Source: Fibrobacter sp. (GTDB lineage Bacteria; Fibrobacterota; Fibrobacteria; Fibrobacterales; Fibrobacteraceae). From it: DNA of 64,000 nt. Below are positions 5,555-64,000 of the stretch, one piece after another; position 1 is the stretch's first letter; every line of letters begins with the position of its first letter. The translations under genes were made by a program, and so were the position numbers. The notes under the pieces were generated by a model. The model had not been told where the DNA came from. It saw nothing but the letters and a program-made list of their open reading frames with translations, and ran no database searches. Where the stretch lies: positions 35,171-99,170 of the forward strand of contig JAKSIB010000012.1 in the NCBI GenBank assembly GCA_024399065.1, given 5' to 3'.

Positions 5555-7387
5555 TTAGCGGTTAAATTCGCGGAACTTTTCGAAATAATTGTTCCTGATA
5601 AGAGCTCCGGATATTCTGTATCCGGTTTCTTCGTCTAAACCAGTAGCTCCTTCAGAAAGAATGTCCTTGCCGACTCCCTTCCAGTAGTAGGAACTGTCTC
5701 CAATTAAACCAAGTATTGTTGGGAAAAGGTCGGATTGGAAGAAGATGTCGTTCTTTTCAATTTTAGCCGGGATAGATGGAGAGTGAACAATTAACGGAAC
5801 GTAGTTCTTTTTGTCCTTTAAGGATATGTTTGCCTTGTTGGCGTAATCAACAAATTCCTCAATCATCTGTTCCTTGAATACGATATGGTCACCGACGATA
5901 ACCAACGTGGTGTTTTTCCACTTGGGGTCGGTTTCGATTTTGGAAATTAGCTTTCCAAGGGCCAAGTCTGTATGGTTGATGCAGGTGAGGTAATTCTGCA
6001 GTGTTTTGGGCATGCCGCTAGAGAGCTTCGGAGCTTCTGTGTTTTCGTTGCATTTAAACGGACTATGAGAAGCGATAGTAATGCCTAACAGGAAAAATGG
6101 ATCATTTGCGCTGTCGCCAACGGCAATAAGGGAATCTACCATTTGTTCGTCATTCCCCTCAAATTCATGCAGCTGCTGGATGCCGTAATTGGGGTTGATT
6201 TCAACCTGGTTCCAGGAACCGGGGGCGGGATTGATAGTGGCAGAGGTACTGAAAAGATGTGCGTAGTTAGGATAACTGTTCTTTCCGTATAATCGGCATG
6301 CGGCACCGGTGTTAAGAGGAAGAATACCGGTCAGGGCGATCATTTGACCATCACCGGAATTGCCCTGCTTTGTTTGGCTTGTGACGCGTGGCGCAAACAA
6401 AGTATTATCCTTTTCTATGAGTTTCTTCAGATTTGGGGCGATGCCTTCTGCACCTTCGTAGTCTTCAAAGATCCAACCTTCCAAAGATTCAAATAGAATC
6501 ACGACCAAATTGGTTTGGGGAACCGGGGCTGTATTTTCTTTTTTAATCAAGCTTTCCAGAAGTTCCTTGTCGGAAGGAGAAATAGGAACTTCATACTTGA
6601 TTTCCTTCAGCTTGCTTTCAAAATGTACTTTGCTGATGAAATAAGATACGTCGGCGAAGAAATAGTCTGCGATGGAGTATTTGCTTATATAGCTCTTTTC
6701 CCAATCCATAAAGGTGCCGTGGGTAAAATATGTCCTGGCGGCTCTATATGCGTCGTATTGGGAATCAAATATGACTCGTACAGCTTCGGCGGTGTCGCCT
6801 TTAATGATGTTTTGTCTAATGGACGTCTTGTGGTTGCTGTAGTTAATCGCTGATCTTGAAACGAATGCCAGCAATACGATGATGATAAAGCAACCAAAGC
6901 TTCTCTGTCGTTCTTTTTTGTTTAATCTAAAGACAAAAATGGCGTAGATGACAGATATGAAGACGGGGAAAAATTCCTTCCATGAAAGGTAAATGAGGAT
7001 ACTGTCCCAAAATCCGTTCATGTTGTCAGCCATCTGCAATGCGTCGGCGTTAATCAGGAATCCGCTGGCGCGGTAGTAGACGACGTTCGCACCCATCCAA
7101 TAATCCAAAGCAAGGGACAACAGAATTGTCCACCATCCTTTCTTTGAAAGGAAGATGAAAGCGGCTATGAATGCGGCGCAGGTTGCCTTTGCAATGATTC
7201 TGTTGGCAGCGCGGCTGGGGGAGGCGTATTCTTCAAAGGAAAATAGCGTTCCTTGGAACCAGAACAATTTAAACAAAACAATTGTTGCGAAAACGACGAA
7301 TAAGGGAAAATTCGGATTTTCCTTTATCGACTTGGCTGCGTCAAAAAGTCTTTTTTGCAGAGTATTGAGCAATTTCTTGATTTGCAT
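5555..7387 (-). CDS. LTA synthase-like membrane sulfatase/phosphoglycerol transferase
   Basis: A 610-aa protein with about five N-terminal membrane helices (residues ~25-185) and an extracytoplasmic alkaline-phosphatase-like (sulfatase) domain. Metal-site motifs of the LTA synthase/OpgB group are present: VVILFESLEGW (Glu ligand), QGNSGDGQ at the nucleophile position, and VGDHIVF near the end. In Gram-negative bacteria such enzymes transfer phosphoglycerol or phosphoethanolamine to glycans or lipids. The nucleophile appears to be Ser or an adjacent residue rather than the usual Thr, so activity should not be assumed. It is single and convergent with the preceding gene. Confidence 0.75.
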   Translation of the reverse strand: MQIKKLLNTLQKRLFDAAKSIKENPNFPLFVVFATIVLFKLFWFQGTLFSFEEYASPSRAANRIIAKATCAAFIAAFIFLSKKGWWTILLSLALDYWMGANVVYYRASGFLINADALQMADNMNGFWDSILIYLSWKEFFPVFISVIYAIFVFRLNKKERQRSFGCFIIIVLLAFVSRSAINYSNHKTSIRQNIIKGDTAEAVRVIFDSQYDAYRAARTYFTHGTFMDWEKSYISKYSIADYFFADVSYFISKVHFESKLKEIKYEVPISPSDKELLESLIKKENTAPVPQTNLVVILFESLEGWIFEDYEGAEGIAPNLKKLIEKDNTLFAPRVTSQTKQGNSGDGQMIALTGILPLNTGAACRLYGKNSYPNYAHLFSTSATINPAPGSWNQVEINPNYGIQQLHEFEGNDEQMVDSLIAVGDSANDPFFLLGITIASHSPFKCNENTEAPKLSSGMPKTLQNYLTCINHTDLALGKLISKIETDPKWKNTTLVIVGDHIVFKEQMIEEFVDYANKANISLKDKKNYVPLIVHSPSIPAKIEKNDIFFQSDLFPTILGLIGDSSYYWKGVGKDILSEGATGLDEETGYRISGALIRNNYFEKFREFNR

Positions 7388-54109: not shown

Positions 54110-54352
54110 TCAAACGGGGAGAGGGGAGGACAAGGGGAAAATTTTGCAGTTTGGGTGTGGAGATCGCTCTGTTTCAGGGATGGTCAAATCAAAGTTATTA
54201 ACGGACTTTCCAAGGCTTTGATATAAACCTGTTTCCATTTGATGGACTAAAACGGTACGGCTCCAGTAGAATTCCAGCATGCCGCTATTTACGCGAATGG
54301 CTGTCTGAATTTGAGTATTGCGGAATCTTTGGACTTCTTGAAGGGTGCTCAA
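54110..54352 (-). pseudogene. Fragment of a DUF1016 (YhcG-like) nuclease gene
   Basis: The 80-codon frame begins with VQRFRNTQIQTAIRVNSGMLEFYWS, which is almost the same as part of the larger remnant at 57.2-57.8 kb. It then jumps directly to RTVLVHQMETGLYQSLGKSVNNFDLT, which in intact DUF1016 proteins lies about 70 residues further on, and then loses similarity. This is a remnant with internal deletion, located next to the first surface-protein module. Confidence 0.65.
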
Positions 54353-54386
54353 TCTTTACAAAAATCTTACGGGCAACTATATTTGT
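54331..54386 (+). promoter_or_regulatory. Shared promoter block of surface module 1
   Basis: A 56-nt block nearly identical to 58758-58813. It contains TTTACA (54355-54360), a 17-nt spacer and TATATTTG (54378-54385), an excellent promoter that also fits TAnnTTTG. The leader to the ATG is about 65 nt. Confidence 0.75.
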
Positions 54387-54454: not shown

Positions 54455-56869
54455 ATGATGCGAAATAGCATTAACTCTTGTTTGACCACGCTGGTCATAA
54501 CTTTGGCGTGTGTGGTGTCTGCAAGTGCAAGTGAAAAACAGTTTTATCTGGTTAATGGTTCTCAAGAGTTTAGTGAGTCCGCTATAGTTGCGGAAGGTAA
54601 CAATACTTTAAGGCTTAATGTTGATGAATCCAATGACTTCTATATCTATGACGAAACCACTGATAGTTGGGGAAACTTTGGATCTGATTTGAAAGTGCCT
54701 TACTCAGGAGAGGGATCGTTTGGGGCTGATAAAATTGGATTTGAAGTAAAAACGGCGGGCTACTATGACATTTATCTTGAAGATCGAGGCTCTGGAGCCT
54801 GGTATGTTTCCTTTACAGAAACTAAGGCGGAAATTGAAAGTGTTGCCGACCTAATTTATACAGGAAAAGCAATTACACCAAAGCCAGCTGTGATTCTTGG
54901 AACGCTTGATATTTCGGAAGGTACTGACTACGAGTATTCATATACCAACAATGTAAATGTTGGCTCTTCTGCAACTGTAACGGTTACATTCAAGGGCGAT
55001 TATGCGGAGTTCGGTTCTGTTTCAAAATCCTTTAATATCACGATGGCTACGCCTACAGTTGAACCTCCGACTTCTGCTAATCCGAAGTACGCTGGTACAT
55101 GTGTCGTGCTTGTTACCGCCGGAACTACAGACTTTGGAACGATGCTTTACAGTTTGGATGGTGACGATTACTCGGAAAATATTCCTTGTGCGGATAAAGG
55201 CGGCGATTATACGGTTTACTACGAGGTTGAAGAAAGTGGCAACTGGTTTGCTGCCGCAGGGAGTGTTGAAATTCAGGTGCCGGTTCGTGTTGATGTGACC
55301 GTGGTTGGCGACGGTTCTGTAAGTGGCTACGATCCCGACGAATTCTACCCTGTTGGTACAGTACTTACCCTTACCGCGGAGCCTGCAGACGGATACAAGT
55401 TCCTTAGCTGGAACAGTGATGTCGATGTTCCTGCAACATTTGAATACACGGTTGATGCTGAACAGAATAGCCTAGAAGCAACTTTCAGCAATCACTATAT
55501 TGCCTACACAACCAGCGACGGTGATACTGCTTTGCCTGTGCTTTCATCTATGTATGATATTAAGAAAAATATGTGCGAGGACGGTCTGTGTGTCATGTTT
55601 TTGGGCGATGGTGTTACAGAACTAGACGATGGCGCATTTAATAATAATAAACGCTTGACTAGTATTGAAATCTCGAGCAGTATTGAAACTATTGGGCATT
55701 TCGCTTTTGCAGAAACTCCTTTGATTCGTGTGGATATGAAGTCAAAAGAGCCCCCTCAATTGGGGGAATGGCTGACTTTCCTCAACGTTCCTGATGAATT
55801 TTTGATTCACGTGCCTCATGGTTCAGCCGATGCCTACAGGTCTGCCGATGGCTGGAAGGATTACAAGGACCACATTGTTGATCACGACGCATCTATGCTG
55901 GTCTGGACCGATGATGCTGTAGTACCCACATGCTCTGAAACAGGTTGGGAAGCAGGCTATGTCTGCAATGAGTGCCACAAGCGCTTTGCCGATGTGGATG
56001 GCCATGTTGAAATGTCCCCGGTGGCCGCCCTTGGAACAACATACGGTGCAGTTTGTGCTTACAATGACGATAGCAAGGCAATTATCGACGGAAACTCCGA
56101 AACCTCCGTACTGCTCCCTTGGAATATCGATGTGGACGCAATTGAGCTGAATAGGACCTTTGCCGCTGGCACAATCTCCACCATTACGCTGCCTTTTAGC
56201 ATGTATGTGGAAAATGTGGAGGGCGCTGTATTCTACAGATTTAAGTATGTTTCTTCGGATGACTGGACTGTTCACGTAGGTTCCGTTCGTGACGAACTGG
56301 TCGCAAACACCCCGTACCTAGTGAAAACTACTGGCGAGACCATCTCCTTTAAGACTGGGGCTACCTTGGAACGTACATTGGATGCCTCTCCCACGGACCT
56401 GGGCCAGGATGAAGGTGATGGCTGGGAACTTCGCGGAACCTATGGAAAAATGGTCTGGAAGGAAGGTCATCCGGATCTTGGGTATGTTTATGGTTTTGCC
56501 GCCGAGAATGTTGTCGATGTCCATATTGGCGAATTTGTGAAAGCTACCGCTGGTGCAAACCTGTCGCCTATGCGAGCCTACCTCTATTACAATCCTGTCG
56601 CAACTCCGGCACCTTCTCCGGAACCGTCCTTCCGTGGTATGGCTCCCATGGCTCGTTCGACTTCCAGTATCGAGACCCCGAATTACTTGGATGTGGTCGT
56701 GGATGACGATGAGGGCGGAACTCTGTATATTGGTAAGCTCAATACCCGCACCGGCGAGTTCAACGCCGCGGGAGAACGCTGGTTCGACATGAAGGGCCGT
56801 AAACTCAACGGCAAGCCCAGCGCTAAGGGTTCCTACTTCAATAACAGGAGCAAGGTTATCGTAAAATGA
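54455..56869 (+). CDS. Large secreted surface protein 1 with T9SS-like C-terminal tail
   Basis: An 804-aa exported protein (signal peptide to about residue 26). In order: a beta domain (~27-125), an Ig-like block nearly identical to one in the 1453-aa paralogue (~128-275), an InlB-like repeat (DVTVVGDGSVSGYDPDEF, ~277-350), a BspA-type leucine-rich segment (~370-460), a C-x-x-C ribbon-like unit (VCNECHKRFAD) and a C-terminal region. The tail (RWFDMKGRKL, then KGSYFNNRSKVIVK) resembles T9SS sorting signals. GAGGAG precedes ATG 54455. Its stop overlaps a small ORF by 4 nt. Probably an adhesin or surface binding protein. Confidence 0.8.
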   Translation: MMRNSINSCLTTLVITLACVVSASASEKQFYLVNGSQEFSESAIVAEGNNTLRLNVDESNDFYIYDETTDSWGNFGSDLKVPYSGEGSFGADKIGFEVKTAGYYDIYLEDRGSGAWYVSFTETKAEIESVADLIYTGKAITPKPAVILGTLDISEGTDYEYSYTNNVNVGSSATVTVTFKGDYAEFGSVSKSFNITMATPTVEPPTSANPKYAGTCVVLVTAGTTDFGTMLYSLDGDDYSENIPCADKGGDYTVYYEVEESGNWFAAAGSVEIQVPVRVDVTVVGDGSVSGYDPDEFYPVGTVLTLTAEPADGYKFLSWNSDVDVPATFEYTVDAEQNSLEATFSNHYIAYTTSDGDTALPVLSSMYDIKKNMCEDGLCVMFLGDGVTELDDGAFNNNKRLTSIEISSSIETIGHFAFAETPLIRVDMKSKEPPQLGEWLTFLNVPDEFLIHVPHGSADAYRSADGWKDYKDHIVDHDASMLVWTDDAVVPTCSETGWEAGYVCNECHKRFADVDGHVEMSPVAALGTTYGAVCAYNDDSKAIIDGNSETSVLLPWNIDVDAIELNRTFAAGTISTITLPFSMYVENVEGAVFYRFKYVSSDDWTVHVGSVRDELVANTPYLVKTTGETISFKTGATLERTLDASPTDLGQDEGDGWELRGTYGKMVWKEGHPDLGYVYGFAAENVVDVHIGEFVKATAGANLSPMRAYLYYNPVATPAPSPEPSFRGMAPMARSTSSIETPNYLDVVVDDDEGGTLYIGKLNTRTGEFNAAGERWFDMKGRKLNGKPSAKGSYFNNRSKVIVK
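54917..55152 (+). repeat. Near-identical 236-bp block, copy 1
   Basis: Matches 61962-62197 without gaps with about ten mismatches by eye, far closer than the surrounding sequence of the two surface-protein genes. Confidence 0.85.
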
Positions 56870-57003
56870 AAAGGCTGGAACCGAAGAAACTGTATTGCAA
56901 ACCCCAGGTAAAAGTAATCAAGCTGAAACACCGTGCGAACCTGCTGCAAAACAGCGGTTTTGAAAATGACGGTCCCAAGGGTTATGGCGGCAAATTTCAG
57001 TAA
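56866..57003 (+). CDS. Small peptide 1 of the basic-leader family (45 aa)
   Basis: The ATG overlaps the surface-protein stop (ATGA), so translation is probably coupled. The 45-aa product begins MKRLEPKKLYCKPQ and continues VKVIKLKHRANLLQNSG, then a Gly/Asp-rich tail GFENDGPKGYGGKFQ. The first ~30 residues are shared with three other small ORFs in the window (57015, 63442, 63615) while the tails differ, a leader-plus-variable-tail design. No signal peptide or known domain is seen. Function unknown; a peptide precursor is one possibility. Confidence 0.7.
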   Translation: MKRLEPKKLYCKPQVKVIKLKHRANLLQNSGFENDGPKGYGGKFQ

Positions 57004-57014
57004 TAGGAGTAGAA

Positions 57015-57140
57015 ATGAAAAAGCAAGAACAGAAGAAACAGTACAAAAAGCCCCAGGTGAAGGTGATCAAGCTGAAGCACCGTTCAAACTTGCTGCAGAG
57101 CAGCCTTCCCGACAGAATGGGTGTTGTCGTTGACGATTAG
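57015..57140 (+). CDS. Small peptide 2 of the basic-leader family (41 aa)
   Basis: A 41-aa ORF with TAGGAG 5 nt before the ATG, 11 nt after small peptide 1. The leader (MKKQEQKKQYKKPQ, then VKVIKLKHRSNLLQSS) is nearly identical to that of peptide 1, and the tail LPDRMGVVVDD is unrelated. A hairpin identical in design to the one after peptide 4 follows. The conservation of leader codons against divergent tails, plus the good ribosome-binding site, supports real translation. Confidence 0.7.
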   Translation: MKKQEQKKQYKKPQVKVIKLKHRSNLLQSSLPDRMGVVVDD

Positions 57141-57216: not shown

Positions 57217-57775
57217 TTACAGTTCATCAATCTGCTTCTGCAAATCCTCCGCTTTTGGGAGCAGTTTATATTCAGCAACTCCAATAGGCGACACCATGTT
57301 TGCCAAGGACCATTCTACCACCGTTTTCTTTTTAGACTTGCAAATCAAAAGGCCAATGGTCGGGTGTTTCCATTTGATGGACTAAAACGGCACGGCTCCA
57401 GTTATTTTCAATGGTCTTATTGATGTAGAACAAAGCTTCGTCAACACCTTGGCACTTGGTGATGATTTCCGTATGGTGTCGCCAAGGAATCATTGCGAAA
57501 CTTTGGGGCATTTCTAAAACTGCACCAACTTGGTGCATTTTTGCAGAATAGAACAGGAACCATCTTTTCATATTCCACAGATTTCTTGTAGAAAAGCCCT
57601 TCGCCTCAGGAAATTCAGCTTTCAAATCAAGGGAAATCTGGTTTACGACGCCTGCGCCCCACTTTTCTTCTGCCTTCTGTTTTACAAGATCCTGGGCAAG
57701 GCTCCAGTAAAATTCCAGCATGCCACTATTTACGCGAATGGCTGTCTGAATTTGAGCATTGCGGAATCTTTGGAC
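57217..57775 (-). pseudogene. Decayed DUF1016 (YhcG/PDDEXK-type) nuclease gene
   Basis: The frame from 57775 reads VQRFRNAQIQTAIRVNSGMLEFYWSLAQDLV...VHQMETP, the DUF1016 N-terminal domain. At about 57360 similarity shifts frame and jumps to HPTIGLLICKSKKKTVVEWSLANM...IGVAEYKLLP, the end of the C-terminal nuclease domain. The middle of the gene, including most of the nuclease core, is missing and the junction is frameshifted. There is no start codon at the expected N-terminus. Non-functional; a mark of gene loss in this accessory stretch. Confidence 0.8.
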
Positions 57776-57895: not shown

Positions 57896-58207
57896 TCATC
57901 CAGCCATAGCCTTTAGAAGTTCTTTTTTGCTGGAGCCCAAAGAGAATAGAGCCCGAATTAACAATTCCAAAGACACGCTGGAATTTGCCTTTTCCATTTT
58001 TGCCAGGCGCGATTGGCTTGTTCCCGACATTCTTGCGACTTCTTCTTGAGACAATCCACTTTTCTTTCGCTTTGCCACAAGAGCCTTGGCGAGCGCAACC
58101 TTCATTTCGATAATCGCCATTTCAGCTTCGTTCAAGTCCAGAAATTCGTCGATGTCGCCAACCTTCCATCCGTTCTTTTCTAGCCTTTCTTTTTTTGCCT
58201 TTTCCAT
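57896..58207 (-). CDS. XRE/HigA-type antitoxin
   Basis: A 103-aa protein with a helix-turn-helix of the XRE type (KRKKSGLSQEEVARMSGTSQSRLAKMEKANSSVSLELL, residues ~47-85), preceded by a helical N-terminus. It lies 6 nt after the RelE-superfamily toxin gene, the toxin-first order typical of HigBA-like pairs. It should neutralise the toxin and repress the shared promoter. Confidence 0.85.
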   Translation of the reverse strand: MEKAKKERLEKNGWKVGDIDEFLDLNEAEMAIIEMKVALAKALVAKRKKSGLSQEEVARMSGTSQSRLAKMEKANSSVSLELLIRALFSLGSSKKELLKAMAG

Positions 58208-58213
58208 GCAGCC

Positions 58214-58546
58214 TCACTTTGCCTCGTAAGCGGAAAGCCGTTTCTTACAGAGTTCTATTACATCCTGCGGAGTTTTGTTTGTTTTCTTATCAACCCAATG
58301 AATCACGATTATCGCATCATCATCGATTCGATAAAAAATCCGCCACGTCTTGTTTTCGTCGTTGATACGCAATTCATGACAACGTGCGCCAATTGACGGC
58401 ATAGGTCGACTTTGCGGCATTGACAAAAATAAGCCTGATTGTAACAAGCGAAGTAGGTATCCTGTTTCAATTCTAGCTTTTTGCGACAACGGCGGAGATT
58501 TTGGTTGAGAACTCAACCAAGCCAAAGGTTTATGTTTTGGACTCAT
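58214..58546 (-). CDS. RelE/HigB-superfamily toxin (phage Gp49-like, PF05973)
   Basis: A 110-aa protein of the Gp49-like group: PPLSQKARIETGYLLRLLQ, MPSIGARCHELRINDENKTWRIFYRID and HWVDKKTNKTPQDVIELCKKRL match the family along its length. Members are ribosome-dependent or free mRNA interferases. The start (ATG 58546) lies only 2 nt from the -10 of its promoter, so either the message is leaderless or the promoter is slightly displaced. First gene of the pair. Confidence 0.85.
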   Translation of the reverse strand: MSPKHKPLAWLSSQPKSPPLSQKARIETGYLLRLLQSGLFLSMPQSRPMPSIGARCHELRINDENKTWRIFYRIDDDAIIVIHWVDKKTNKTPQDVIELCKKRLSAYEAK

Positions 58547-58757: not shown

Positions 58758-58813
58758 GGCCTTCTTGAAGGGCGTTCAATCTTTACAAAAATCTTACGGG
58801 CAACTATATTTGT
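58758..58813 (+). promoter_or_regulatory. Shared promoter block of surface module 2
   Basis: Nearly identical to 54331-54386: TTTACA (58782-58787), 17-nt spacer, TATATTTG (58805-58812). Here the leader is about 290 nt, moderately GC-rich and without a recognisable gene. The 58578-58757 stretch holds nothing I can assign. Confidence 0.75.
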
Positions 58814-62100: not shown

Positions 62101-63467
62101 CAGTTGAACCTCCGACTTCTGCTAATCCGAAGTACACTGGTACATGTGTCGCGCTTGTTACCGCCGGATCTACGAACTTTGGAACGATGCTTTACAGCGT
62201 GTTAAGGGAAGGCGGGTCACAGACTGCTTATTACACCGGTATTCCTTGCGCCGATTGGGCTGGCCGTTATACGGTTTACTATAAGGTCGAGGAAAGTGAT
62301 AACTGGTTTGGCTTTGCTCCTCAATCTGTTGACGTGACTGTGGAAAACGAAATGTTCAAGATTACCTTTGTAGATGATGAGGGTGACGAAATCATCTCTC
62401 GTGAATACGAGTATGGCACTCCGGCTGAAGGCGTTGACTTGCCACCAGAAAATCCAGAAAAGGCTGACGATGAAATGTATGCCTACACCTTTGCTGGCTG
62501 GAGTCCTGAAATTCAGGAAGTGACTGGTGCTATGACATATAGTCCAATCTACGATAAAACCCGTATCGGTTTCGGTCCAATTACTATTGCAAAAGACAGT
62601 TCCTCGGCAATTATCGATGGAATGTCCAGAGATCCTATCGATAAGGCAATTAAGGACTGCATGATTAAAGGTGAAGTAACCCTCTATCGTCACTTTGCGG
62701 CAGGAAAGTATTCCACCCTTGTACTGCCTTTCTCGACGTTTACGGGTGCTTTTAGTGGCGTGTCTTTCTATTCGTTCAGGGGTGTGGAAAAGGAAAATGG
62801 CGTCTGGAAGACGGTTGTCTTCGGCTATGTTGACAAAGAAAATGAAGGTAATAAGCCCATTGAGGCAAATACCCCCTACATCGTGGTTGCCGATGCTGAT
62901 ATGGACGACCTGGTTGTAAAAGATGGTGTATTGTTTGATGCAGACGATCCCAAGAGTTCTTATGGAGCTACCTTGATTTGCTCTGAAGAAACTTGTGATG
63001 AAGTGCCTGACGAAAATAAAAGCTGGCAGTTCGTGGGTACCTATAATTACAGACAATGGGATTCCGGCAACAATGTCGAAGAAATTGGAACTACTTATGG
63101 CTTTGCTGGTGCTGCCGGTAACGGCGGTATGGAAATTGGCAAGTTTGGTAAAATCAAGGAAGGAGCCTACATCTATCCCATGCGAGCCTACCTGCGTTAC
63201 CAGCCTCCTTCGCTCCCATCCGTCCTATTCAAGGCGGCTCCAGCCTATGCTTCTGTCGCAAGTATCGATGAACTCCCTGAATCCATGGATGTGGTTATCA
63301 GGGGCGAAGAGGGTACAACGGTCATCGGAACCATCAACACCCGCACCGGTGAGTTCCGCTCCGCAGACAATCGCTGGTTCGACCTGAACGGCCGTTACCT
63401 CGGCAACAAAAAGCCCACCGTCAAAGGAACCTACTACAATAATGGAAAGAAAGTCATTGTCAAGTAA
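59106..63467 (+). CDS. Large secreted surface protein 2 with T9SS-like C-terminal tail
   Basis: A 1453-aa exported protein (signal peptide ends near AFA-AE). In order: a discoidin/F5-8C-like domain (~20-185), a C-x-x-C ribbon-like unit (QCSVCGKFFADAE, ~258), two Gly/Ile-rich beta-helix-like regions (GAGIGSGKSG..., ~300-540 and GSGIGTGEA..., ~690-900), the block shared with surface protein 1 (~925-1075), an InlB/MucBP-like repeat (ITFVDDEGDEIISREYEYG, ~1085-1150) and a C-terminal region. The tail (RWFDLNGRYLG, then KGTYYNNGKKVIVK) resembles a T9SS signal. AAGGAG precedes the ATG. Probably a carbohydrate-binding or adhesive surface protein. Confidence 0.8.
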   Translation: MMRNGINSYLTSLVMVLALLFSANAFAAETVQSTIEIDGKDYTLFTGFTATAGIEKPKVTTALHSNMVDGDPSTSWRDARSDEAVSFGYTYVEFTSDVPIFLKGYILNSYSVNSYHPSEWRLFAKADVDGDYVLVSEYTDQTYSGTEHKYPVVNEENNQYRFFRFECANENLIIALTEIRLYGYDELTYTHLTPHAATCSQQGVLRECYLRNDGKYFTDETGTTELDEFAVVEPMIPHIDVHHEADANHIEYWQCSVCGKFFADAEMTTEIAEVQTQKIKYLNSTGDLEQLNEVATKVTSDATIWNAGWYLVSENVTISDRIIVNGEVHLILANGVTLNANRGITVSTDASFNIYAQTEDEANMGALNATVPNYLFEPYAGIGCAYGSGDAGSIMINGGKITARGNEGAGIGSVQYRSVGTITINGGIVDAADTEGSGAGIGSGKSGKASVINLNGGVIYAKGIGAGVYGTGSITINVSNGIKKIVATSNNSGCIGNKENITVNFKNEGSIVTGAAKDAIFYDSGEGEQRIIRTKALNHHIVIGDNIKAHITADTEYALAGELITLTVGLTVDASSVKINGVTGSLSDVEGGTYTFVMPDGDVNVAVDEVAETYSVDFPEQMEIVRTSNPADGDGKYISGTVVEFRLMFPYTTTDVSDGTNTLVAANGVYSVTVETSNINISASINRGNSINLSEATNNFTAVDGDVLSGSTQYTVMVADMANITLSDATIDGGIICDGSATITLEGENNVTGATNMAGIQVGGLGTTLTIRGDGSLTALGNYFSAGIGLSQARKVDAIGGDIVIEGGNITAIGHSKWGSGIGTGEAYKATVRLGNITIKGGVVKAIGGEDADGIGIGYTYTNLGSTNEIGTITIYDTADMVDASSVRKNIIYMHDDIDVSVSKNDYFGIIENGERKIIYTGIPAFDVEDQTYTGEAITPKPTVSLGSLNFEEGTDYEYSYTNNVNVGSSATVTVTFKGDYAEFGSVSKSFNITKATPTVEPPTSANPKYTGTCVALVTAGSTNFGTMLYSVLREGGSQTAYYTGIPCADWAGRYTVYYKVEESDNWFGFAPQSVDVTVENEMFKITFVDDEGDEIISREYEYGTPAEGVDLPPENPEKADDEMYAYTFAGWSPEIQEVTGAMTYSPIYDKTRIGFGPITIAKDSSSAIIDGMSRDPIDKAIKDCMIKGEVTLYRHFAAGKYSTLVLPFSTFTGAFSGVSFYSFRGVEKENGVWKTVVFGYVDKENEGNKPIEANTPYIVVADADMDDLVVKDGVLFDADDPKSSYGATLICSEETCDEVPDENKSWQFVGTYNYRQWDSGNNVEEIGTTYGFAGAAGNGGMEIGKFGKIKEGAYIYPMRAYLRYQPPSLPSVLFKAAPAYASVASIDELPESMDVVIRGEEGTTVIGTINTRTGEFRSADNRWFDLNGRYLGNKKPTVKGTYYNNGKKVIVK
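61962..62197 (+). repeat. Near-identical 236-bp block, copy 2
   Basis: Second copy of the block at 54917-55152; same frame and length. Confidence 0.85.
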
Positions 63468-63600
63468 GCCGAAGTGTGGCTATGTCAAGCCGGAAATGAA
63501 AATCGTCAAGCTCAAGGCCCGCACAAGCCTGCTTCAGGGTAGCGGCTCTCACGACCCTGCTGACGATTTGCCGGAAACATTGAATGTTATAATCAGATAA
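63442..63600 (+). CDS. Small peptide 3 of the basic-leader family (52 aa)
   Basis: The ATG lies 26 nt inside the end of the surface-protein gene in another frame, so it depends on translational coupling. The 52-aa product reads MERKSLSSKPKCGYVKPE, then MKIVKLKARTSLLQGSG, then an acidic tail ending in NVIIR. The central part matches the other three small ORFs; the tail does not. An alternative start closer to KPKCGY is not available with ATG. Confidence 0.68.
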   Translation: MERKSLSSKPKCGYVKPEMKIVKLKARTSLLQGSGSHDPADDLPETLNVIIR

Positions 63601-63614
63601 GAATGGAGAACAAT

Positions 63615-63764
63615 ATGCAGAAGAAAGAATACAAGACTCCGAAAATGAAGGAAATCAAGCTGAAGTCCCGCGCAAACTTGCTTTGTGGAAGTGGCTGTGA
63701 AGAAGAGATTGGCGGGGAACTCAACTACAACGATTACGAACCCGTAGATCGTAAGAACGTTTAA
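63615..63764 (+). CDS. Small peptide 4 of the basic-leader family (49 aa)
   Basis: A 49-aa ORF with TGGAGA 5 nt before the ATG, 14 nt after small peptide 3. The leader MQKKEYKTPKMKEIKLKSR continues ANLLCGSG. The tail (CEEEIGGELNYNDYEPVDRKNV) is acidic and has no match to the others. A strong terminator follows 37 nt later, so peptides 3 and 4 end the surface-protein transcript. Confidence 0.7.
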   Translation: MQKKEYKTPKMKEIKLKSRANLLCGSGCEEEIGGELNYNDYEPVDRKNV

Positions 63765-63800
63765 CCTGTTCCTGTGCTATTGATTTGCTCATGAAGCGAA

Positions 63801-63835
63801 AAGTCCTTCCGACCAAAATCGGAGGGACTTTTTTA
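63801..63835 (+). terminator. Terminator of surface module 2
   Basis: AAGTCC-TTCCGA pairs with TCGGAGGGACTT around CCAAAA, followed by TTTTT. The same hairpin without the T run ends module 1. Confidence 0.9.
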
Positions 63836-63859: not shown

Positions 63860-64000
63860 ATGGATTTTTCCCGATACGATAATTTTTTCCGTCTGTTGCG
63901 TATTGCGCTTGGGTGTCCGGGGGCAAGTGCTGACGTGTTTCCGCGGCTGTCTGCGGAAGAGTGGGAACGCATTTACAACGAGGCGGACCGGCAGACTCTT
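63860..64000 (+). CDS. Start of a nucleotidyltransferase-like (NTP_transf_5) protein, cut by the window
   Basis: From ATG 63860 an open frame runs off the window: MDFSRYDNFFRLLRIALG, then ...FPRLSAEEWERIYNEADRQTL. This resembles the N-terminus of the uncharacterised nucleotidyltransferase family PF14907 (FF-x-LLRxxL ... LSAEEWxxIYxxAxxQ). A TATACT box is 20 nt upstream. Only 47 residues are visible, so the call is tentative. Confidence 0.5.
   Translation, partial: MDFSRYDNFFRLLRIALGCPGASADVFPRLSAEEWERIYNEADRQTL

Follow-up and report, generated by a model that had tools for sequence, protein, structure and literature searches.

The closest described systems to the genes considered here are phosphorylated or phosphoglycosylated lasso peptides (paeninodin, pseudomycoidin and Bradymonas bsf). 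According to the available parts of PMC10368454, the leader motif YxxPxL of lasso precursors is the part recognized by the B1 protein, a recognition element (RRE) for ribosomally synthesized and post-translationally modified peptides (RiPPs). In pseudomycoidin, as described in the available parts of PMC8498205, a kinase phosphorylates the C-terminal serine and a nucleotidyltransferase then adds hexoses to the phosphate. For Fibrobacter succinogenes, the available portion of PMC6851124 proposes a role in the Type IX secretion system (T9SS) for C-terminal domains of secreted surface proteins. Here we analyze a window of 64,000 nt from Fibrobacter sp. (GCA_024399065.1, contig JAKSIB010000012.1, forward strand 35,171-99,170; genome G000 in our set), in which two surface-protein genes are each followed by two tiny tandem genes, encoding peptides 1 and 2 and peptides 3 and 4, respectively. 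These peptides belong to a family under purifying selection with a conserved leader and variable tails, which is associated with one type of surface-protein C-terminal domain and, in several genomes, forms a contiguous cassette with putative tailoring and export genes. We consider it probable, at roughly two chances in three, that the tiny genes encode RRE-guided, RiPP-like precursors whose tails are modified, cut and exported to act with the neighboring surface protein.

Like the lasso systems, as far as the available parts of PMC8498205 and PMC10368454 describe them, the Fibrobacter sets combine a leader of the Y-x-x-P-x-L type and a stand-alone PqqD-type RRE with HPr-kinase-like and nucleotidyltransferase genes and an ATP-binding cassette (ABC) exporter. 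Unlike them, the contiguous Fibrobacter cassettes contain neither a transglutaminase-type B2 protease nor an Asn-synthetase-type cyclase, the ring motif is missing, and the sets have an S24/S26-like peptidase and an association with surface proteins. By model names, the HPr-rel-A system (TIGR04352, TIGR04353) and the SynChlorMet cassette (TIGR04249) are also similar, with an HprK-related kinase beside a PqqD-family peptide chaperone. In contrast, all Fibrobacter matches to these models fall far under the curated cut-offs (20.9 of 200 bits for the TIGR04352 kinase and 19.5 of 35 bits for TIGR04353 PqqD), and neither system is known to be associated with a nucleotidyltransferase or with surface proteins. 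T9SS cargo (Por secretion tails, Fibrobacter BTD/Fpm-1) is also comparable, as the secreted surface proteins here bear a C-terminal domain and the own genome encodes SprA (TIGR04189, matches of 1105.6 and 211.7 bits within a single 2305-aa frame). The difference is that the domain considered here is mostly followed by a peptide gene, an arrangement that, to our knowledge, is described for no T9SS cargo. A T9SS link, raised by the first-pass annotation of this DNA, is supported indirectly by SprA and by a conserved C-terminal domain that mostly occurs with the peptides, while searches of Pfam and NCBIfam gave no match at E<1 to a T9SS or Por secretion tail model for either window surface protein. 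Three features general to RRE-guided RiPPs are present: a conserved leader with a variable core, an RRE in the genome and at the locus, and adjacent modifying enzymes, the last by homology. The parts are of known kinds, and we regard their combination as a variant of RRE-guided peptide systems. Among open-licence articles we found no report of such a combination, in which a lasso cyclase is missing, the peptidase is S26-like, the precursors are dispersed and a surface-protein domain is associated, and the available parts of PMC10352776, PMC7533575, PMC8498205, PMC10368454, PMC13289728, PMC6851124 and PMC11285876 do not describe this association.

The four window peptides share 12 invariant columns, including Y10, P13, K16, K19, L20, K21, R23, L26, L27 and S30 (peptide 1 numbering), and none belongs to a Pfam or NCBIfam family; a match to methanobactin (E 0.15) was dismissed. 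The first-pass annotation had noted peptides 1 and 2 as tandem open reading frames (ORFs) of 45 and 41 aa, translationally coupled or with good ribosome-binding sites and with a shared leader. Both observations were borne out: the peptide 1 ATG overlaps the stop codon of the surface protein 1 gene (ATGA), AGGAG lies 5 nt upstream of the peptide 2 ATG, and the two ORFs have KPQVKVIKLKHR(A/S)NLLQ(N/S)S in common, with peptide 1 recovering peptide 2 genome-wide at E 2e-8. The leader end proposed there, LLxxSG, shortens to LLxxS, since peptide 2 has LLQSSL. The further statement that the tails GFENDGPKGYGGKFQ and LPDRMGVVVDD share nothing is correct with regard to each other, but in each pair one of the tails is similar to the surface protein encoded upstream (see below). 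Two checks suggested at that stage, a profile search and a selection analysis, both came out in favor of a genuine family. Profile A1, built from the four window peptides, finds nine places when run on the own genome, including a weak one at E 0.65. Across a set of 60 genomes, 37 from the genus (the own one included) and 23 from outside it, A1 matches at E<=1e-3 occur in 34 of the 37 and in none of the 23. Four comparisons of window peptides with their copies in Fibrobacter UBA1765 revealed 9 synonymous changes in 112.7 sites against 4 nonsynonymous changes in 448.3 sites (Fisher p 1.4e-4), showing that the peptides are under purifying selection.

A larger sample comprised 126 peptide ORFs in the window and in 80 stretches around profile matches, own paralogues and Prevotella sites; it follows E-value ranking and is not random. 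It contains 124 unique peptides, 120 of which align in one register. Y..P.[LMIV] is present in 121 of the 124, its last position being mostly M, and in the one-register alignment the tyrosine is found in 120/120, the proline in 119/120 and the serine after LLxx in 114/120. Mean column entropy in the 120 peptides is 1.96 bits in the leader versus 3.73 bits at tail positions, and the mean charge is +1.8 up to the serine versus -3.2 in the tail. Small residues predominate directly before this serine (G 31, A 23, S 18, C 12 and D 11 of 124), which would suit a signal-peptidase-like enzyme. A second tail class, exemplified by YCDELGFNADSATSHKV (L099; also L092, L075 and L073), carries a C-x-x-x-Y-C-D-E-L-G-like motif or G-E-(L/F)-G and is seen at many loci.

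Because the B1 RRE recognizes YxxPxL in lasso leaders, we searched for the RRE family PF05402. A stand-alone PqqD-type RRE is present in 34 of the 37 genus genomes, the copy in G032 being of a divergent type; the PF05402 search did not find one in G001 (where the only match lies in a 489-aa frame), G014 or G018. In eight genomes (G010, G030, G003, G005, G013, G020, G035 and G007) the genes are contiguous in the order surface gene, peptide(s), NTP_transf_5 nucleotidyltransferase (PF14907, E 1e-44), HprK-fold kinase, S24/S26-like peptidase, RRE (PF05402, 1.9e-13) and ABC exporter. G004 has a ninth full cassette, its domain being detected by profile. Variants of the cassette lack the surface gene (G019), the peptide (G008, G031) or both (G026), or have the nucleotidyltransferase gene moved (G009); this gene is missing from G001 and G014 and divergent in G032. 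Where a machinery gene comes next after a peptide, it lies within 131 nt in 35 of 41 rows, or 26 of 32 once nine doubly fetched places are removed, and the closest spacings are -1 to 13 nt. Wherever a stand-alone RRE is present, its gene adjoins the ABC gene, except in G011 and G032 (32 of 34 genomes). In the own genome, the kinase gene lies on contig 17 behind a further peptide (L113), and peptidase, RRE and ABC genes stand together on contig 6 (L145). The first-pass annotation had seen no maturase or exporter next to the peptides; this does not hold, as a nucleotidyltransferase gene starts at 63860, 95 nt past the second peptide pair, and the 47 codons of it inside the window encode almost the same N-terminus as complete NTP_transf_5 relatives have. 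Its suggestion that a conserved leader with a variable tail marks a ribosomal peptide precursor is, by contrast, well supported, both by the Y-x-x-P-x-(L/M/I/V) leader and by the tailoring and export genes that directly follow peptides in several genomes.

The kinase-like protein has about 300 aa and a P-loop in 29 of 29 non-identical copies. The best structure matches of a model of a Fibrobacter relative's kinase (predicted local distance difference test, pLDDT, 86.7) are PEPCK and HprK (E about 1e-5 to 1e-4, template modeling score 0.2-0.5). In the protein database, members of this family (P0022-P0141) are annotated with a precomputed Pfam domain, PF27840, that was absent from the results of the local Pfam scan. 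The S24/S26-like protein, of about 150 aa, has G.SM.P in 26/27 and (V/I)(V/I)HR in 27/27 copies, and we take it to resemble a signal peptidase of the Ser-His type. Kinase and peptidase are fused in one ORF in two genomes and in one metagenomic protein. The two ABC exporter copies that were scanned contain no C39 peptidase domain.

Upstream of the peptides, one type of C-terminal domain recurs. An ORF with its motif ends at most 450 nt upstream of 112 of the 126 peptides when overlaps and variant motifs are allowed; a simpler count gives 102, and at least two of the 14 still unmatched after the wider count, L093 (start 8237) and L106, reflect a missed motif. When profiles A5 (domain) and A2 (peptide) were run on whole genomes, all 19 domains with E<1e-10 in G000, G003 and G030 (6, 7 and 6, respectively), which were chosen and not random genomes, were directly followed by a peptide; a weak domain match in G003 (E 0.0017) was not. 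A census of the genus, covering 149 listed of 169 domains at E<=1e-9, places a peptide behind 106 of the 149 (103 from the pairing itself and 3 added by hand). Domain (E<=1e-9) and peptides (E<=1e-3) are missing from the same three of the 37 genomes (G001, G014 and G032), and their counts over the 37 correlate (Spearman 0.77). The association of the peptides with this domain type is strong, though not complete, and the peptide therefore appears to serve surface proteins rather than act alone. It extends to Prevotella, where G060, a genome reached by way of RUG515, has four such domains at E<=1e-9, a peptide behind at least three of the surface proteins (L117, L118 and L119), a diverged peptide behind another (L182), and nucleotidyltransferase, kinase, RRE, peptidase and ABC genes as well. 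At L182, the diverged peptide, MKKKYFAPEMEEVKLDEVVVLDDVVEPSKIDTVDCPPVGEEA, comes after a surface protein ending in WYNLNGQRIDTPTRKGLYIKNGKKVIVR, and a second PqqD type lies opposite it (5711-5878 on the plus and 5977-6108 on the minus strand).

Some tails resemble the stretch immediately ahead of the upstream protein's C-terminal domain. Examples of such tail and neighbor pairs are MDVEFINRD and MDVEFVNRE, or LPETLNVIIR and LPESMDVVIR. In the window, the tail of peptide 3 (..DDLPETLNVIIR) is similar to LPESMDVVIR of surface protein 2, and the best match of the peptide 2 tail anywhere in surface protein 1 is NYLDVVVDDD, predicted as a strand in a low-confidence structure model. In that model of the C-terminal domain, which has a mean pLDDT of 52 and offers a hint only, a strand is placed at the pre-domain stretch. 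When 109 non-identical tails were scanned along the whole upstream ORF, the best match lay within the pre-domain stretch for 25, versus 7.1 expected from ten shuffles per tail. Strand-like tails found their best match in their own neighbor's pre-domain stretch in 15 of 17 cases versus 2.4 expected, evidence that is smaller than its numbers because the pattern was defined after examples had been seen and because the 17 loci include related ones. An earlier test of 90 pairs against the pre-domain stretch gave a sum of own scores of 1791 compared with a permuted mean of 1591 (standard deviation 37; 0/5000), and in both tests kinship among loci was not fully removed.

Collectively, these data allow a sequence of steps to be proposed. 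The stand-alone PqqD-type RRE would hold the conserved Y-x-x-P leader while the kinase and nucleotidyltransferase modify the variable tail, by phosphorylation or by nucleotidyl or glycosyl transfer. The S26-like, signal-peptidase-like enzyme would then cut the leader off after LLxxS, and the ABC exporter would carry out the freed tail, which may work with the neighboring surface protein. For one class of tails, we infer from the resemblance above that the exported peptide could pair with the first strand of the domain or take its place. Domains without a peptide would use peptides in trans, or none.

Several observations weigh against this reading. Many peptides, window pair 1 among them, are distant from the machinery, and a terminator-like hairpin separates peptide 4 from the nucleotidyltransferase gene; because of this hairpin (63798-63833), the two may be on separate transcripts. 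Terminator-like sites of any strength number 11 in the region against 8.9 expected from shuffles. The peptidase and kinase score under the curated cut-offs of named models. G018, with 7% contamination, bears peptides and yielded no RRE in the PF05402 search, and in G032 (L191, 3551-10783) a set of divergent nucleotidyltransferase, kinase-like, PqqD-like and S24-like genes occurs without the peptide family or the surface domain, which probably represents a second, different system. Serine is the last residue in only 5 of 124 peptides, and 17 of 120 tails contain neither serine nor threonine, so C-terminal serine phosphorylation of the lasso type cannot be general, and a different or variable acceptor is required. 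The great majority of tails, 92 of 109, lack the strand-like pattern and have little surplus of matches in the pre-domain stretch (10 versus 4.7 expected). Behind four of the 149 domains lies a machinery gene and not a peptide (G008, G031 and twice in G021). More broadly, 40 domains for which no peptide had been listed were rechecked: 9 proved to have a family peptide, whereas 31 had none within the next ~0.6-1.2 kb; a further 8 of the 149 lay outside the check. Thus, many such surface proteins manage without a peptide of their own, and the strict pairing first drawn from the three chosen genomes had to be dropped. The 31 peptide-less surface proteins with the same C-terminal domain fall between L207 and L244 in our locus list and cluster in G002, G007, G016, G019, G022 and G028; one of them, L226, has a damaged-looking peptide start with a nucleotidyltransferase gene next.

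These peptide-less domains, at least 31 of 149, would also fit a reading in which the machinery produces the peptides as bacteriocins or signals and the surface protein is an adhesin that merely shares the operon. We think this unlikely. Variable tails and several paralogues per genome fit such products, and RRE, kinase, nucleotidyltransferase and ABC exporter genes accompany modified lasso-type peptides. However, 112 of the 126 peptides lie behind the same domain type, which disappears from the same three of 37 genomes as the peptides; one tail class resembles the neighbor's own sequence, and the tails are acidic (mean -3.2).

The resemblance is open to another interpretation, that the peptides are unprocessed intracellular adaptors or chaperones, whose leader binds the RRE machinery and whose tail binds the C-terminal domain, so that the surface protein is brought to the machinery. 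Such a two-ended design, half RRE motif and half a tail resembling the first strand of the domain, agrees with the translational overlap with the surface gene. It is hard to reconcile with surface proteins that appear to be Sec-exported, and so to leave the cytoplasm, where the kinase and nucleotidyltransferase are expected, or with a majority of tails that are not strand-like, and we regard it as decidedly improbable.

That the peptides are lasso peptides is very hard to maintain, even though a Y-x-x-P-x-L leader, RRE, kinase and nucleotidyltransferase occur together in the Bradymonas, Paenibacillus and Bacillus clusters as described in the available parts of the literature. The B2 protease family PF13471 scores over the cut-off in none of 25 genus genomes, with three weak matches below it. 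By coordinates, the contiguous cassettes have no room for a cyclase gene, PF00733 not having been searched genome-wide. A core starting with G or A/C and bearing D/E at the ring position is seen in only 21 of 120 tails, counted from after LLxxS. With B2, cyclase and ring motif missing, the lasso identity is contradicted. Finally, spurious ORFs or decaying ends of surface genes, a reading prompted by short ORFs that overlap or adjoin these genes, have a negligible chance given the purifying selection, the strict leader motif and the genus-wide family, which contradict it.

The features of the window are collected in Table 1. Surface protein 1 matches the InlB-type B-repeat PF18998 (2.4e-9) and the BspA-type leucine-rich repeat PF13306 (1.6e-6) in Pfam. 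Upstream of both surface-protein genes are identical promoter-like hexamers on the plus strand, TTTACA and TATATT separated by 17 nt (54355-54383 and 58782-58810). Beside both genes there are also alike ORF pieces on the minus strand (54110-54352 and 57217-57721; ..FYWS.., ..VLVHQMET..), which we presume to be broken DUF1016-type genes. Between the two surface loci, at 57896-58546 on the minus strand, an XRE-type helix-turn-helix protein (103 aa) adjoins a RelE/HigB-like protein (110 aa), presumably a toxin-antitoxin pair.

Table 1. Surface-protein genes, C-terminal domains, tandem peptides and downstream features in the window; the two C-terminal domain sequences are themselves rows of profile A5
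Feature	Position	Strand	Basis or remark
Surface protein 1 gene, 804 aa	54455..56869	+	ORF; Sec-type signal peptide judged by eye
NYLDVVVDDD, start of surface protein 1 C-terminal domain	56681..56710	+	Best match of peptide 2 tail in whole protein
C-terminal domain, surface protein 1 (..WFDMKGRKLNGKPSAKGSYFNNRSKVIVK)	56690..56866	+	Profile A5 match G000:C12:91860-92036, E 9.3e-28
Peptide 1, 45 aa, tail GFENDGPKGYGGKFQ	56866..57003	+	ORF and peptide profile search
Peptide 2, 41 aa, tail LPDRMGVVVDD, surface-strand-like	57015..57140	+	ORF, profile, tail scan
Surface protein 2 gene, 1453 aa	59106..63467	+	ORF; Pfam matches weak, below cut-off
C-terminal domain, surface protein 2, ELPESM before it	63288..63464	+	Profile A5 match G000:C12:98458-98634, E 6.9e-26
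Peptide 3, 52 aa, start inside end of surface protein 2 gene	63442..63600	+	ORF, profile, tail scan
Peptide 4, 53 aa, tail ..GGELNYNDYEPVDRKNV	63603..63764	+	ORF, profile
Terminator-like hairpin, 15 pairs and T run, between peptide 4 and nucleotidyltransferase gene	63798..63833	+	
NTP_transf_5 (PF14907) nucleotidyltransferase gene, first 47 codons	63860..64000	+	Cut by window and contig end

Beyond the RiPP-like precursor reading, a bolder and, in our view, doubtful possibility is that of a two-part signal for surface display, in which sorting domains are completed by separately exported, tailored RRE-guided peptides, mostly encoded directly downstream of the surface gene, that supply a modified copy of the first beta-strand or an attachment group, peptide-less domains being served in trans. 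If this were true, protein secretion would depend on a RiPP-like peptide, for which we know of no precedent in any secretion system. The system as a whole would connect RRE-guided tailoring, known from RiPPs, with surface-protein sorting in Fibrobacterota and Bacteroidota, phyla that include fiber-degrading gut bacteria. At E<=1e-10, at least 7565 protein clusters are related to the kinase family, and the machinery may therefore be common. The findings also suggest a substrate beyond lasso peptides for PF14907, named an uncharacterised nucleotidyltransferase, and the genus offers a collection of natural tail variants for testing.

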